Assembly: GCA_947853665.1 (NCBI GenBank)
Contig: CANTXF010000064.1
Location: forward strand, 1-48,848
Direction of reading: 5' to 3'
DNA from: an uncultured Deferribacterales bacterium
GTDB taxonomy: Bacteria; Chrysiogenota; Deferribacteres; Deferribacterales; Mucispirillaceae
DNA length: 48,848 nucleotides
The translations under genes and the position numbers were made by a program. The notes under the pieces were generated by a model. It was not told the origin of the DNA. It saw nothing but the letters and a program-made list of their open reading frames with translations, and did no database searches. Positions 1,463 to 34,784 of this stretch are shown here, one piece after another; the first letter of the stretch is position 1, and every line of letters begins with the position of its first letter.

Positions 1463-1489
1463 GCCTCCCGGAAACGGGAGGCTTTTTTT
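1463..1489 (+). terminator. Intrinsic terminator of rpsB-tsf
   Basis: A perfect 8-bp stem, gcctcccg (1463-1470) and cgggaggc (1475-1482), with a GAAA tetraloop is followed at once by seven T residues (1483-1489). This is a textbook Rho-independent terminator ending the rpsB-tsf transcript. Confidence 0.93.
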
Positions 1490-1504
1490 ATTACGGCCAT
1501 ACCA

Positions 1505-1540
1505 TTATACAGATTTATGTAAAGTTATGGAAAATATTTA
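1505..1540 (+). repeat. Truncated copy (D) of dispersed inverted-repeat element
   Basis: This segment keeps only the inner part of the left arm of the element, including gttatggaaaatattta at 1524-1540. It is nearly identical to the copy at 34451-34467. It stops one base before the full copy A begins at 1542, so it looks like a broken tandem neighbour or an insertion next to an older copy. Confidence 0.7.
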
Positions 1541-1541
1541 C

Positions 1542-1769
1542 GCAACCATACCTTTACGTAGATTAACGAAGTTATGGGAAATATTTATAATACGGCGGCT
1601 TGCCCATATCGGCGAATAATAAAACGGAAGTGCCCGGCAAGGCGCCGCCCGAAGGGGCTTTTGCCTAAAGAACCCGCCTTGCTGAGCGGCCCTTATTATG
1701 AATATTTTTGGGGCGAAGGAACATTACTATAATTATTTGCCATAACTATCTGCGCCGGGCGATAGCCGC
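1542..1769 (+). repeat. Full-length copy (A) of dispersed inverted-repeat element
   Basis: A 228-bp unit with imperfect terminal inverted repeats. The left arm contains gttatgggaaatatttat (1571-1588); the right arm contains ataattatttgccataac (1729-1746), its near-perfect reverse complement. The outer ends run towards GCAACCAT on the left and ATAGCCGC on the right. The copy at 33228-33423 shares both arms plus internal blocks such as GAAGGGGCTT. No transposase is encoded. It could be a MITE-like non-autonomous element, a REP/BIME-type repeat or a structured RNA; the sequence alone does not decide. Confidence 0.75.
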
Positions 1770-1866
1770 CTTTTTTTATTTTACCGGCGGAAACTCGCTT
1801 TATATATTAAGCCCGTAAAAGAAAAACCCCTTTAATAAGCCGCCCGCAGATTATCCGCAAAGCCTG

Positions 1867-30664: not shown

Positions 30665-31450
30665 ATGAGCCAGGCGATAGGATACGCGCTCGTGATCATG
30701 AGCGACAAAAAAGAAAACAAACACATGATAACGCTGAAAGAGGGCGCGCGCTTCTCCACCCAGCACGGCTTTATAGAACACGACGAGATAGCGAAGCTAT
30801 GCCAGGGCGACACCATAAAAAGCAGTATGGGGCACCCTTACCGGGTGTATCTGCCCACATATATGGATTTCGTAATGAACATAAAGCGGCAGGCCCAGAT
30901 AATATATCCCAAAGACGCGGCCGCCATGCTTATGTGGGGCGATATAGCGCCACGCCAGAACGTGCTGGAATCGGGCGTGGGCCAGGGAGCCCTTTCCCTT
31001 GCCGTGCTGCGGGCCCTGGCCGGCACCGGAAAGCTGACATCCTATGAGCTGCGGGCGGATTTTGCCGAGCAGGCCGCAGGCTTTATAAAAAAATTCCTCG
31101 GCGAAACGCCCGCGAATCACGAAATACAGATACGCAACATATACGACGGGATAGAGGGCGTTTACGACAGGGCTCTGCTGGATCTTCCGGAACCCTGGCA
31201 CGTGGTGAAGCATTTTGAAACGGGGCTTATAGACGGAGGCATAGTCGTGGCCTATATACCTACGGTGCTTCAGGTAAAAACATACGTGGACGAGCTTAAA
31301 GCCTGCGGCTTTTTTTCGGAAATAGAAACGGCGGAGCTTATAAGAAGGCCCTGGAAGGTGGACGGCCTGTCCGTGCGCCCGGAAATGTGGATATACAACC
31401 ACAGCGCCTTTCTTGTAACGGCCAGAAAATTCAGAAAAAACGAAGGATAA
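30665..31450 (+). CDS. trmI: tRNA (adenine(58)-N1)-methyltransferase
   Basis: Makes m1A58 in the T-loop of tRNA. The 261-residue protein has an N-terminal beta domain (ARFSTQHGFIEHDEIA, GHPYRVYLPTYMDFVM) and the family signature QIIYPKDAAAMLMWGDI. The SAM motif ESGVGQGALSLAVLRALAG is followed by the acidic YELRADF and the catalytic-region LDLPEPW. The ATG at 30665 has GAGG seven bases before it. It is a single gene ended by the bidirectional terminator at 31594, and diverges from pheA across about 100 AT-rich bases. Confidence 0.93.
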   Translation: MSQAIGYALVIMSDKKENKHMITLKEGARFSTQHGFIEHDEIAKLCQGDTIKSSMGHPYRVYLPTYMDFVMNIKRQAQIIYPKDAAAMLMWGDIAPRQNVLESGVGQGALSLAVLRALAGTGKLTSYELRADFAEQAAGFIKKFLGETPANHEIQIRNIYDGIEGVYDRALLDLPEPWHVVKHFETGLIDGGIVVAYIPTVLQVKTYVDELKACGFFSEIETAELIRRPWKVDGLSVRPEMWIYNHSAFLVTARKFRKNEG

Positions 31451-31593
31451 AAGGGCGTGATGGCACGGCCTATGCGAAATTTAACGCGGCTTACACTCTT
31501 GATAATCCAGTATAAGCAGGCAAAAAAGAGGTGAAATCAGCAGGGTCTATTGCCAGAAAAATAACATAGAACGGCGAAGTGCCGGAATAATAT

Positions 31594-31624
31594 AAAAGGG
31601 GCAAAAATTATTTTGCCCCTTTTT
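31594..31624. terminator. Bidirectional intrinsic terminator
   Basis: A 13-bp perfect inverted repeat, aaaaggggcaaaa (31594-31606) and ttttgcccctttt (31611-31623), with a 4-base loop. It has A/T tracts on both sides, so it can end trmI on the plus strand and the metallopeptidase gene on the minus strand. It also marks the left edge of the AT-rich island. Confidence 0.9.
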
Positions 31625-31652
31625 AATGTATCAAAGCATTATATGATGTTTA

Positions 31653-33143
31653 TTACCATGCATAATAAAAGCCCGCAATTCCATTATTTCCAGTCAGCTC
31701 TATCGTATCGAATACGCCCTTCCATTTTGTAATAAAAAAGCCGTACATCCCAAGCTGCTTATCGCCGTATCCCGCGGATGTTATAAATGTGTTATCAGCA
31801 TTTCCGGAATTATAAACTTCGTCAATAATGCTTGCAAGGTTAAACCCGTTTCTAGTATAGCCATCCGTGCCTGCCGGATAATTAAATTCTTCAATATTAT
31901 ATACCGGGTCGTCCGTAACGCCTCTGCCCGTCACTAAAATCATTTTGACAAAATCTAAAAATAAAGTATTAAAATCAAGCCCTGTGGCCGCTTCTATAAT
32001 TTTAATACCATTATCCGGAGAAGTATATATCGTTTGTATAAAGCTATCGCCAAATCTTATTTGCAGGTATCTGGCAAAAAGATAGCTTAATCCATAGTTT
32101 TGAGAAGAATCGTCGGTAATTAACGATATGCCTTGTTCGCTATCGAAATATGCGCCGATATAGCGGTAATGGGGAGAGGTATATCCGCCATAATATTCTG
32201 CAAGCATGGAAAGGCCTTCATTTATCCATGCCGATACATAAGAGTTTAAATTAAGACGCGAGCGGCTGTCAAAAAGCGTCATATGCTGAAACTCGTGTAT
32301 AAAGGTAGCAAGAACATCCGTTTTGTTTATATCCCACCGGCTTTTTTCAAAATAATGATGGTTTACATAAAGCACATCCGCTTCATTGGATTTTTCTTCA
32401 TCAGGTAAATCCTGCTGCTTAAATTTATCGGCAGAATAGAAAAAACCCATTATATTTGGTGAAAAATCAGCGATTAAAAACGATACTTTACCATTACCGT
32501 CAGTATCTTCTTCTTTTCCATAATATTTGTGTATTATTTCATAATCTTTATCGAAGGCGTTTGTGATTTCACGTATCTGTTCGTCAGACGGCGGAGTTAA
32601 TCCGTCCCGGAGAAAGAAATAAGCATATTGAGAAACCGCAATACATGTGGCATCAATAGTGTTAAACGTTCCTGTTTCCACATCAAGAACATATACGTTA
32701 TCCCATTTCGTTCCCGCTTGAATATCCACAGGCATGGTTTTTTTGGAAATATTGCCCGCTTCGTTAATAGGGCGGATATTATTTAAATAAGTATATTCCT
32801 GCAGACGTTTATTTTTATCTTTAATTATTTCTTTAATACCTTTCGTTTTTGTAATAATTTTTTGCGATACAACGTCCGTATCAGGTACCTGCTGTCCGTT
32901 GCCGCTTATACTGTAACTGTTATTTAATTCATAATCGTCAACAGCGGGAGACTGCGCATAGTATATAAGCGTATTGAGAGATTTATTTACATCATAGTTT
33001 ATACGATTTGCGCCCGGTACAAGAGAATTTTCCGATACCAACGGCGCGGAGGGATAACTGTTAATATTATCATTGTGAGATTTATCATCATTTGCGCAGG
33101 CAGATAATGCGAACAAAAAAAGTATTATAAACAGTCTTTTCAT
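31653..33143 (-). CDS. M30 (hyicolysin)-like zinc metallopeptidase lipoprotein
   Basis: A 496-residue predicted lipoprotein. Residues 1-15 form a lipoprotein signal with lipobox LSAC, and a low-complexity linker follows. The zinc site is HEFQH at 283-287, with a third ligand probably E309 in WINEGLSMLAEYYGG. DTDGNGKVSFLIADF before it resembles the short Asp/Asn-Gly calcium-type motif of peptidase family M30. ATG at 33143 is preceded by GGAG; an in-frame ATG four codons earlier is possible. The gene is clearly more AT-rich than its neighbours, with many AAT, AAA and TTA codons, consistent with acquisition. It probably acts on proteins at the cell surface or in the periplasm; the target is unknown. 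Confidence 0.78.
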   Translation of the reverse strand: MKRLFIILFLFALSACANDDKSHNDNINSYPSAPLVSENSLVPGANRINYDVNKSLNTLIYYAQSPAVDDYELNNSYSISGNGQQVPDTDVVSQKIITKTKGIKEIIKDKNKRLQEYTYLNNIRPINEAGNISKKTMPVDIQAGTKWDNVYVLDVETGTFNTIDATCIAVSQYAYFFLRDGLTPPSDEQIREITNAFDKDYEIIHKYYGKEEDTDGNGKVSFLIADFSPNIMGFFYSADKFKQQDLPDEEKSNEADVLYVNHHYFEKSRWDINKTDVLATFIHEFQHMTLFDSRSRLNLNSYVSAWINEGLSMLAEYYGGYTSPHYRYIGAYFDSEQGISLITDDSSQNYGLSYLFARYLQIRFGDSFIQTIYTSPDNGIKIIEAATGLDFNTLFLDFVKMILVTGRGVTDDPVYNIEEFNYPAGTDGYTRNGFNLASIIDEVYNSGNADNTFITSAGYGDKQLGMYGFFITKWKGVFDTIELTGNNGIAGFYYAW

Positions 33144-33487
33144 ACAGCGCTCCATAAAAGTATATTTAACGGCACGATAACAGTTTTTATAAAATATTCA
33201 ACGCCGAATATTGATATACATTTCATCGCAGCTATACTCTTACGTAGGCTAATAAAGTTATGGGAAATATTTATGATAGGGCGGCTTGCTCATATCAATG
33301 GATAACAAGGCTAAAAGCCTTTGGCCATGTATTGTCTGAAGGGGCTTATCCCCGAAGTTTGCCTTGCCGCGCAGGCGTTATCATAATCATTTGCCATAAC
33401 TATCCGTGTCAGGGGATAGCCGCTGAAAATTATTACCACATTAACGATTCATCAAAAAAAATAATTTACAACAAACTTTCAATAGTT
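33144..33487. other. AT-rich intergenic stretch holding repeat copy B
   Basis: No credible gene is seen. Bases 33144-33227 are AT-rich upstream DNA of the metallopeptidase gene, in which no convincing promoter hexamers could be aligned. Bases 33228-33423 are a full copy of the inverted-repeat element. The remaining 64 bases lead to the 3' end of the DUF1848 gene and show no clear terminator. Confidence 0.6.
33228..33423 (+). repeat. Full-length copy (B) of dispersed inverted-repeat element
   Basis: A 196-bp unit whose ends read GCAGCTAT on the left and ATAGCCGC on the right, so it opens and closes with near-complementary 8-mers. Inside them lie gttatgggaaatatttat (33257-33274) and ataatcatttgccataac (33383-33400), which pair as an imperfect long stem. 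The small hairpin at the right end (ctatcc to ggatag, 33400-33418) has a counterpart in copy A at 1747-1765 with changed bases. It is about 32 bases shorter than copy A. Confidence 0.75.
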
Positions 33488-34411
33488 TTATATTTTTAAA
33501 CTTTTCATATTTTTTCTTTCTATAATTTTATCTTTTGCGCAATCGACACCGCCTATTAAAACGGGTGAAATGATATTGTGCTTTCCATAATTTTTAAATG
33601 CGGAATATTTATCGATATTCGCGTAGCAGTATAAACAATTATGCAGGCATGTATTATATTCGCCGATATCGACAGATTTTATGCAGCCGCATGCGGCCCG
33701 CTGGTTATCTTTATCTTTTTTTATATGTGAATCGGTTATTTTTTCAATCAGCACATCATCGATACATCTGCCGTGTTCTATGCCAAATTTTTCTAAATCG
33801 ATCTGCTCTGCACAGCTTTCTGTTATTAAGTTATATTTTTTTGCTATACTTGCAAAATTTTCGGCAAGTATCATCATTTCCCGTTTTGATATTTCTTTTA
33901 TATTTTGCTCTTTAATATTTTTTAATATTTTTCTGTAATTATCAAGAAAACTGACTATTACTTTTTCAGTATAAGATGAAAGTAAAAAGCATAGCTTTTC
34001 AAATGATTTTCTGTGGAAGTCTATCGTATATTTATTATTTAATATTACAGGGTCATATCTGAGTATTACTTTTTCTTTTCCTATTTTATCTGATAAAATC
34101 TTAAATGTTTCTATTATTTCTTTTTTATCATAAATATTTTCTTCCAGGTCCTTACCGTAAGGCGTAACGGTAAATTGGAAATAATATTTATACCCCATAT
34201 TGTCTATTTCATCTAAATATTTATGGACCGGTTTTGAGTTTTTAGTCCAGAATACGATGCAGTCTACATTTTCAGGAGTTAAATAGATTTTGGACACTTG
34301 ACGGGTATTAAAAGGATTGCGAACGAGCACATAATTTTCCCGTAGTCTGTTTATGAGCCACTCTGCGTAAAATGCGGGTATGTCAGTTCTTCTGCTGGCG
34401 CTTATTATCAT
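33488..34411 (-). CDS. DUF1848 family protein with Cys-rich C-terminus
   Basis: A 307-residue protein matching DUF1848: it opens with MIISASRRTDIPAFYAEW, contains VFWTKNSKP and QFTVTPYGKDLE, and ends with a Cys-rich block near residues 240-265 (C-x-C, then TCLHNCLYCYAN). The CxxxCxxC spacing is like a radical SAM or other iron-sulfur site, but at the C-terminus; the family function is unknown. It is the most AT-rich gene in the window. No Shine-Dalgarno sequence precedes the ATG at 34411; instead repeat copy C begins eight bases upstream. Copies B and C therefore bracket the gene, pointing to acquisition as a cassette. Confidence 0.8.
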   Translation of the reverse strand: MIISASRRTDIPAFYAEWLINRLRENYVLVRNPFNTRQVSKIYLTPENVDCIVFWTKNSKPVHKYLDEIDNMGYKYYFQFTVTPYGKDLEENIYDKKEIIETFKILSDKIGKEKVILRYDPVILNNKYTIDFHRKSFEKLCFLLSSYTEKVIVSFLDNYRKILKNIKEQNIKEISKREMMILAENFASIAKKYNLITESCAEQIDLEKFGIEHGRCIDDVLIEKITDSHIKKDKDNQRAACGCIKSVDIGEYNTCLHNCLYCYANIDKYSAFKNYGKHNIISPVLIGGVDCAKDKIIERKNMKSLKI

Positions 34412-34419
34412 AAATTATC

Positions 34420-34496
34420 GCAGCTATACCCTTACATAGATTAATGTAAAGTTATGGAAAATATCTATAATACGGCAGCTTGGTCTCCCCATAACG
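34420..34496 (+). repeat. Partial copy (C) of dispersed inverted-repeat element
   Basis: The left arm is intact: GCAGCTATACCCTTAC from 34420, then gttatggaaaatatctat at 34451-34468, through ACGGC and GCTTG near 34482. Similarity to copies A and B then stops, but ccataac at 34490-34496 matches the start of the right arm. This copy therefore looks like an internal deletion. It is in the same orientation as copy B, so the two form direct repeats around the DUF1848 gene. It sits at the right edge of the AT-rich island. Confidence 0.7.
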
Positions 34497-34511
34497 CCGC
34501 CCCTCTGTAAT

Positions 34512-34784
34512 TTATCCTTCCCCGCTTTTCGGCCTGTATTCCACAGTTTCGATATATTTATCCAGCTCCGCTTTGGGTATGGAGCCCCGCTCCGGCAGCG
34601 CGAGAACTCTGAGCTTTTTATAGTAGTTCCACATATCTATTTCCAGTATGTCGCCGGGTTTCAGCTTCAGGGCCGGTTTGGCGTCCCTGCCGTTTACCTT
34701 TATAAAGCCTTCGTCCGCCGCTTCGTTCGCAACCGTGCGCCGCTTTATTACCTGAGCCGTTTTTAAAAACTTATCTAGCCGCAC
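34512..34784 (-). CDS. RqcP/Hsp15-like S4-domain RNA-binding protein
   Basis: A 90-residue protein that is almost entirely an S4 RNA-binding domain: MRLDKFLKTAQVIKRRTVANEA, then GFIKVNGRDAKPALKLKPGD. This matches RqcP (YabO), which helps RqcH add Ala tails to stalled nascent chains, and also Hsp15 (HslR), which rescues stalled 50S-peptidyl-tRNA complexes. The short length and the IKRRT motif favour the RqcP type. It overlaps the surA-like gene by 14 bases and is the last gene of the mfd-led run. Confidence 0.85.
   Translation of the reverse strand: MRLDKFLKTAQVIKRRTVANEAADEGFIKVNGRDAKPALKLKPGDILEIDMWNYYKKLRVLALPERGSIPKAELDKYIETVEYRPKSGEG

Follow-up and report, generated by a model that had tools for sequence, protein, structure and literature searches.

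How did a gene of the DUF1848 family come to lie between two copies of a short repeat, and did the repeats carry it there? We investigated these questions in the window (the whole stretch of DNA analyzed, 48,848 nucleotides), for which a preliminary description had read the arrangement as a cassette moved by recombination between the repeats. The layout behind that reading held: copies B and C flank the DUF1848 gene, both in + orientation, and C starts eight bases from the ATG (Table 1). The preliminary description did not record that copy C is only a left-end fragment. B and C share 79% identity across 85 bp.

Table 1. Features of the window that bear on the DUF1848 locus
Feature	Position	Strand	Remarks
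Extra left-end fragment (A0), directly before copy A	1488..1540	+	left flank TTTTTTTA = right flank of A, 8/8
Copy A, full-length MITE, in the gap that separates tsf from the gene at 1952	1541..1770	+	
trmI, flanking the empty site on the left	30665..31450	+
trmI–rqcP interval, 3061 bp	31451..34511	.	190–225 bp in three sister-genus genomes
Gene for a 500-aa predicted secreted/lipoprotein-like protein; HEFQH (HExxH) motif; GC 0.374	31653..33155	-	extra relative to the sister genus
Copy B, full length minus an internal deletion of ~30 bp; no matching target duplication	33227..33424	+	model positions 2–230
DUF1848 gene, 307 aa; GC 0.311, GC3 0.296	33488..34411	-	ATG at 34409–34411
Copy C, MITE truncated to its left 67 bp; right end lost, followed by unassigned sequence up to the rqcP stop codon	34419..34485	+	model positions 1–67
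rqcP-like gene with an S4 domain, flanking the empty site on the right	34512..34784	-

The DUF1848 gene and its neighbor

The product of the DUF1848 gene matched PF08902 (DUF1848) in Pfam over residues 2–264 (E 8.5e-107). Its start codon is secure because the family N-terminus, MI[IL]S.SRRTDIP in the alignment with Mucispirillum homologues, begins exactly at the ATG. The protein resembles the family in its full-length domain and in its conserved cysteines, and we noted no difference from it; the seven cysteines (C200, C216, C241, C243, C255, C259, and C262) are invariant, which suggests a putative metal or Fe–S site. The predicted structure (pLDDT 94) was of an alternating strand–helix type, for which comparison with the PDB gave weak, mostly barrel-type matches (TM about 0.2–0.36), and a search of solved structures with the sequence gave no match. 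The literature available contained no paper on DUF1848 and none on Mucispirillum MITEs.

As the preliminary description stated, this is the AT-richest gene of the window; we found the neighboring gene at 31653–33155 to come next. Its GC content lies 4.3 SD under the mean of 198 ORFs from stretches of the same genome (mean GC 0.50, mean GC3 0.57; window GC 0.52), an atypical composition of the kind used to recognize horizontally acquired genes. The neighboring gene product, predicted to be metalloprotease-like, had no Pfam match and a weak similarity to flagellinolysin. Among 44 relatives, its homologues were found in Mucispirillum only, often several per genome.

The trmI–rqcP site in relatives and the origin of the DUF1848 gene

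In three sister-genus genomes, trmI adjoins rqcP, which makes this an exact empty site that has neither of the two extra genes and no repeat; gene order is kept beyond it on both sides (pheA side and surA–mfd side). In a fourth, each flank has a contig of its own. The sister genus yielded no DUF1848 gene and no counterpart of the 500-aa neighbor gene. The empty site is, like the composition, a sign by which horizontally acquired genes are recognized. The preliminary description had named two observations as contrary to its reading, relatives with the DUF1848 gene at the same site without the repeats and synteny across the whole family, and neither was found. The empty site with a single repeat copy that it proposed to look for does not occur among these relatives either, as they are without the repeat family. 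In Mucispirillum, the trmI–rqcP link is broken, the interval being itself a rearrangement breakpoint; in one genome, trmI and rqcP lie about 100 kb apart.

All ten Mucispirillum genomes carry a DUF1848 gene, at other sites and often near leuC, with a GC content of 0.27–0.29. The gene studied here grouped with them in the tree (support 99/98), and its protein is 63–71% identical to theirs, about as much as the deepest of those among themselves. Since the tree does not separate a position inside Mucispirillum from one beside it (p-AU 0.416), it is compatible with vertical descent followed by relocation, in which the gene would have been present in the common ancestor with Mucispirillum, as its occurrence in 10/10 genomes might suggest, and would have kept an AT-rich composition at its new site. 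We consider such an old resident gene improbable: it would have escaped the genome-wide rise in GC (GC3 0.30 vs. mean 0.57), and, unlike TrmI, the protein is as near to the Mucispirillum copies as the deepest of those are mutually. The DUF1848 gene was probably acquired horizontally, in AT-rich DNA from what would have been a Mucispirillum-like donor.

The repeat family

We built a 231-position repeat profile from stretches fetched around repeat places in the 2.43-Mb genome to which the window belongs. Searching those stretches with the profile identified at least 115 copies, of which 72 are near full length. In the assembly of the same genome, a half-site pattern search gave 189 matches, compared with 1 for a reversed control, and copy B as a query matched dozens of places. 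The left terminus has the sequence CGCAGCTATACCC, and the right terminus, when reversed, GGCGGCTATCCCC; this inverted pairing runs on imperfectly inward, the two halves are largely complementary, and a single long hairpin forms when the consensus is folded. When 32 copies were aligned and folded together, mainly the outer stem was recovered, with little covariation.

The flanks of full copies were duplicated well beyond chance (mean score 5.81 vs. 4.32 ± 0.15 in shuffled flanks; top of 500 shuffles, 4.78). An 8-bp direct repeat, with 7 or 8 of 8 bases matching, flanked 30/48 copies, and the duplicated 8-mers were 92% A/T. Target duplication was missing in 11 of 66 copies, including copy B, whose left and right flanks do not match (score 3.7). 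The TTTTTTTA flanks on both sides of the A0–A tandem indicate that it probably arose within a single insertion. The repeat thus shows defining features of a MITE (length below 500 bp and multiple copies, terminal inverted repeats, and target site duplication). By its sequence, it is a non-coding, near-palindromic MITE of 231 bp with A/T-rich target duplications of ~8 bp.

The family was absent from 14 same-family genomes and 30 further genomes of the order, except for one 27-bp match, which was also the only trace of it in the ten Mucispirillum genomes. Plasmid, phage, and viral-contig collections gave no match, and neither did Rfam. The repeat family is therefore new in that it was unmatched in the sources searched, while MITEs as a kind are well known, and it appears to be confined to a single lineage within the Mucispirillum family. 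No transposase, such as a related autonomous element would supply to a MITE, was seen between widely spaced repeat termini in the stretches examined around copies. We considered one such pair, 1.15 kb apart on contig C26, as an autonomous element and rejected it because it encloses a cytochrome b561 gene. Another copy adjoins a 195-aa ORF (contig C35, 1731–2318) that had the lowest GC content examined (0.259) and no Pfam match.

Did the repeats carry the gene?

A MITE copy occurs about every 21 kb in this genome, so two repeats around a gene are no evidence of a cassette. Six pairs of copies 700–1500 bp apart were seen where 2.6 are expected at random, a count that just reaches the limit of the 95% range (0–6); copy pairs spaced like B and C (~1.2 kb) are within chance. 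Elsewhere in the genome, copies about 1 kb apart enclose genes of ordinary GC.

What stands of the cassette reading is that the DUF1848 gene is extra here, as the empty site in three genomes indicates, and looks foreign in composition; its arrival by recombination between the repeats does not follow. The extra block extends beyond what the repeats enclose, with the protease-like gene outside the repeat pair. Moreover, copy C is without its outer (right) end, and no outer target duplication was seen. Taken together, the evidence does not favor the repeats as the carrier of the DUF1848 gene.

One form of this reading has the DUF1848 gene and one adjoining MITE, for example as a circle, entering through homologous recombination at a copy already in place. 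The shared orientation of B and C agrees with it, as does the A0–A tandem, which suggests recombination or slippage between copies; additionally, the left flank of C and the right flank of B agree at 7/8 bases, yet the own flanks of B are unmatched. However, 5.6% of random flank pairs reach as much agreement, the 11 of 66 copies without duplication show that the unmatched flanks of B are not exceptional, and no recombination partner stood out from chance when the flanks of B and C were cross-matched with those of all copies. The gene outside the repeat pair belongs to the extra block, B–C identity is just ~79%, and the donor would need to be a close congener, since the repeat was not found outside its own genome. 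We therefore regard this route as unlikely. The broader proposal, that the MITE family promotes gene capture through recombination between dispersed copies, with DUF1848 so captured and its start region supplied by the repeat, seems doubtful to us.

Alternatively, B, C, and the DUF1848 gene could have transposed as a single composite unit, for which MITE-flanked Acinetobacter integrons with 5-bp direct repeats (PMC3934969) offer a precedent. Copy C has no right terminus, so the required outer end is missing, and the left flank of B and the right side of C show no 8-bp duplication (best 6/8 over 25 offsets). Such a transposition is very improbable.

Misassembly of the trmI–rqcP interval is unlikely. 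Repeat copies lie on at least 22 contig ends of this genome (e.g., C1, C5, C10, C16, C24, C34, and C55), which means that the MITE family breaks the assembly and could make a misjoin at the repeats conceivable. Against this, the longest exact run that B and C share with the other copies examined is 25–27 bp, compared with at least 56 for the contig-end copies tested, and the AT-rich block meets trmI without a repeat at that end. We give a contig misjoined at the repeats almost no credence.

We find it likely that the locus is explained by the independent gain of an AT-rich block and later insertions of the MITE copies B and C. On this account, the AT-rich block, comprising the metalloprotease-like gene and the DUF1848 gene, would have been gained independently in the trmI–rqcP interval on this organism's own lineage, with horizontal transfer from a Mucispirillum-like relative as the most likely route. 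The lineage-specific MITE, presumably moved in trans by a transposase and preferring A/T-rich 8-bp targets, would afterwards have inserted as copies B and C into A/T-rich intergenic stretches of the block, and the right half of C would have been lost later. Although it makes up 6% of the window, the interval contains 25% of all A/T 8-mers found there, a fourfold enrichment; with intergenic 8-mers alone, the enrichment is weaker (31/137). Because these 8-mers are the preferred targets of the MITE, such richness alone would draw insertions. Weighing against this account are the missing target duplication of copy B, the lost right side of C, the weaker intergenic enrichment, the lack of an autonomous partner element in the stretches examined, and the compatibility of the tree with vertical descent and relocation.

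The start region of the DUF1848 gene

The preliminary description reported no Shine-Dalgarno sequence before the DUF1848 gene, and we likewise found none at normal spacing; the best duplex (-4.0 kcal/mol) lies 22 nt upstream. As a sign of a cassette, this is not diagnostic: a Shine-Dalgarno sequence, judged by eye, is also missing in ~5/10 Mucispirillum DUF1848 genes, where no repeat is present, as well as at the neighboring gene and a few other genes of the window. The repeat end may possibly have replaced the native leader; alternatively, transcription may read through from rqcP. The AT-rich interval has more promoter-like matches than shuffled sequences do, and we give them no weight.

Comparison with known systems

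The gain from this locus is the description of a high-copy MITE family together with two AT-rich genes whose site is cleanly empty in a sister genus. MITE-flanked composites (Acinetobacter integrons, PMC3934969; TIME-COMPs, PMC13367494) resemble the locus in having a gene between same-direction MITE copies. In the Acinetobacter composites, both copies are complete and identical and a target duplication lies at the outer ends (PMC3934969), whereas B and C have diverged from each other, C is truncated, and an outer duplication was not seen. Enterobacterial palindromes of the ERIC and RU type (PMC2229807) are likewise intergenic near-palindromes of 100–250 bp in many copies; no sequence relation to them was found through Rfam, the one source used for this comparison, which gave no repeat match. 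QMITE2 of Coxiella burnetii is a bacterial MITE with 7–9 bp direct repeats at its target (PMC10969869), and the present repeat resembles MITEs of this type in being shorter than 500 bp and non-coding, in its inverted termini and many copies, and in its A/T-rich intergenic targets, 7–9 bp target direct repeats, and one long stable hairpin. It differs from them in sequence, as judged from Rfam and the searched collections, and in having longer imperfect inverted repeats (~50 bp).
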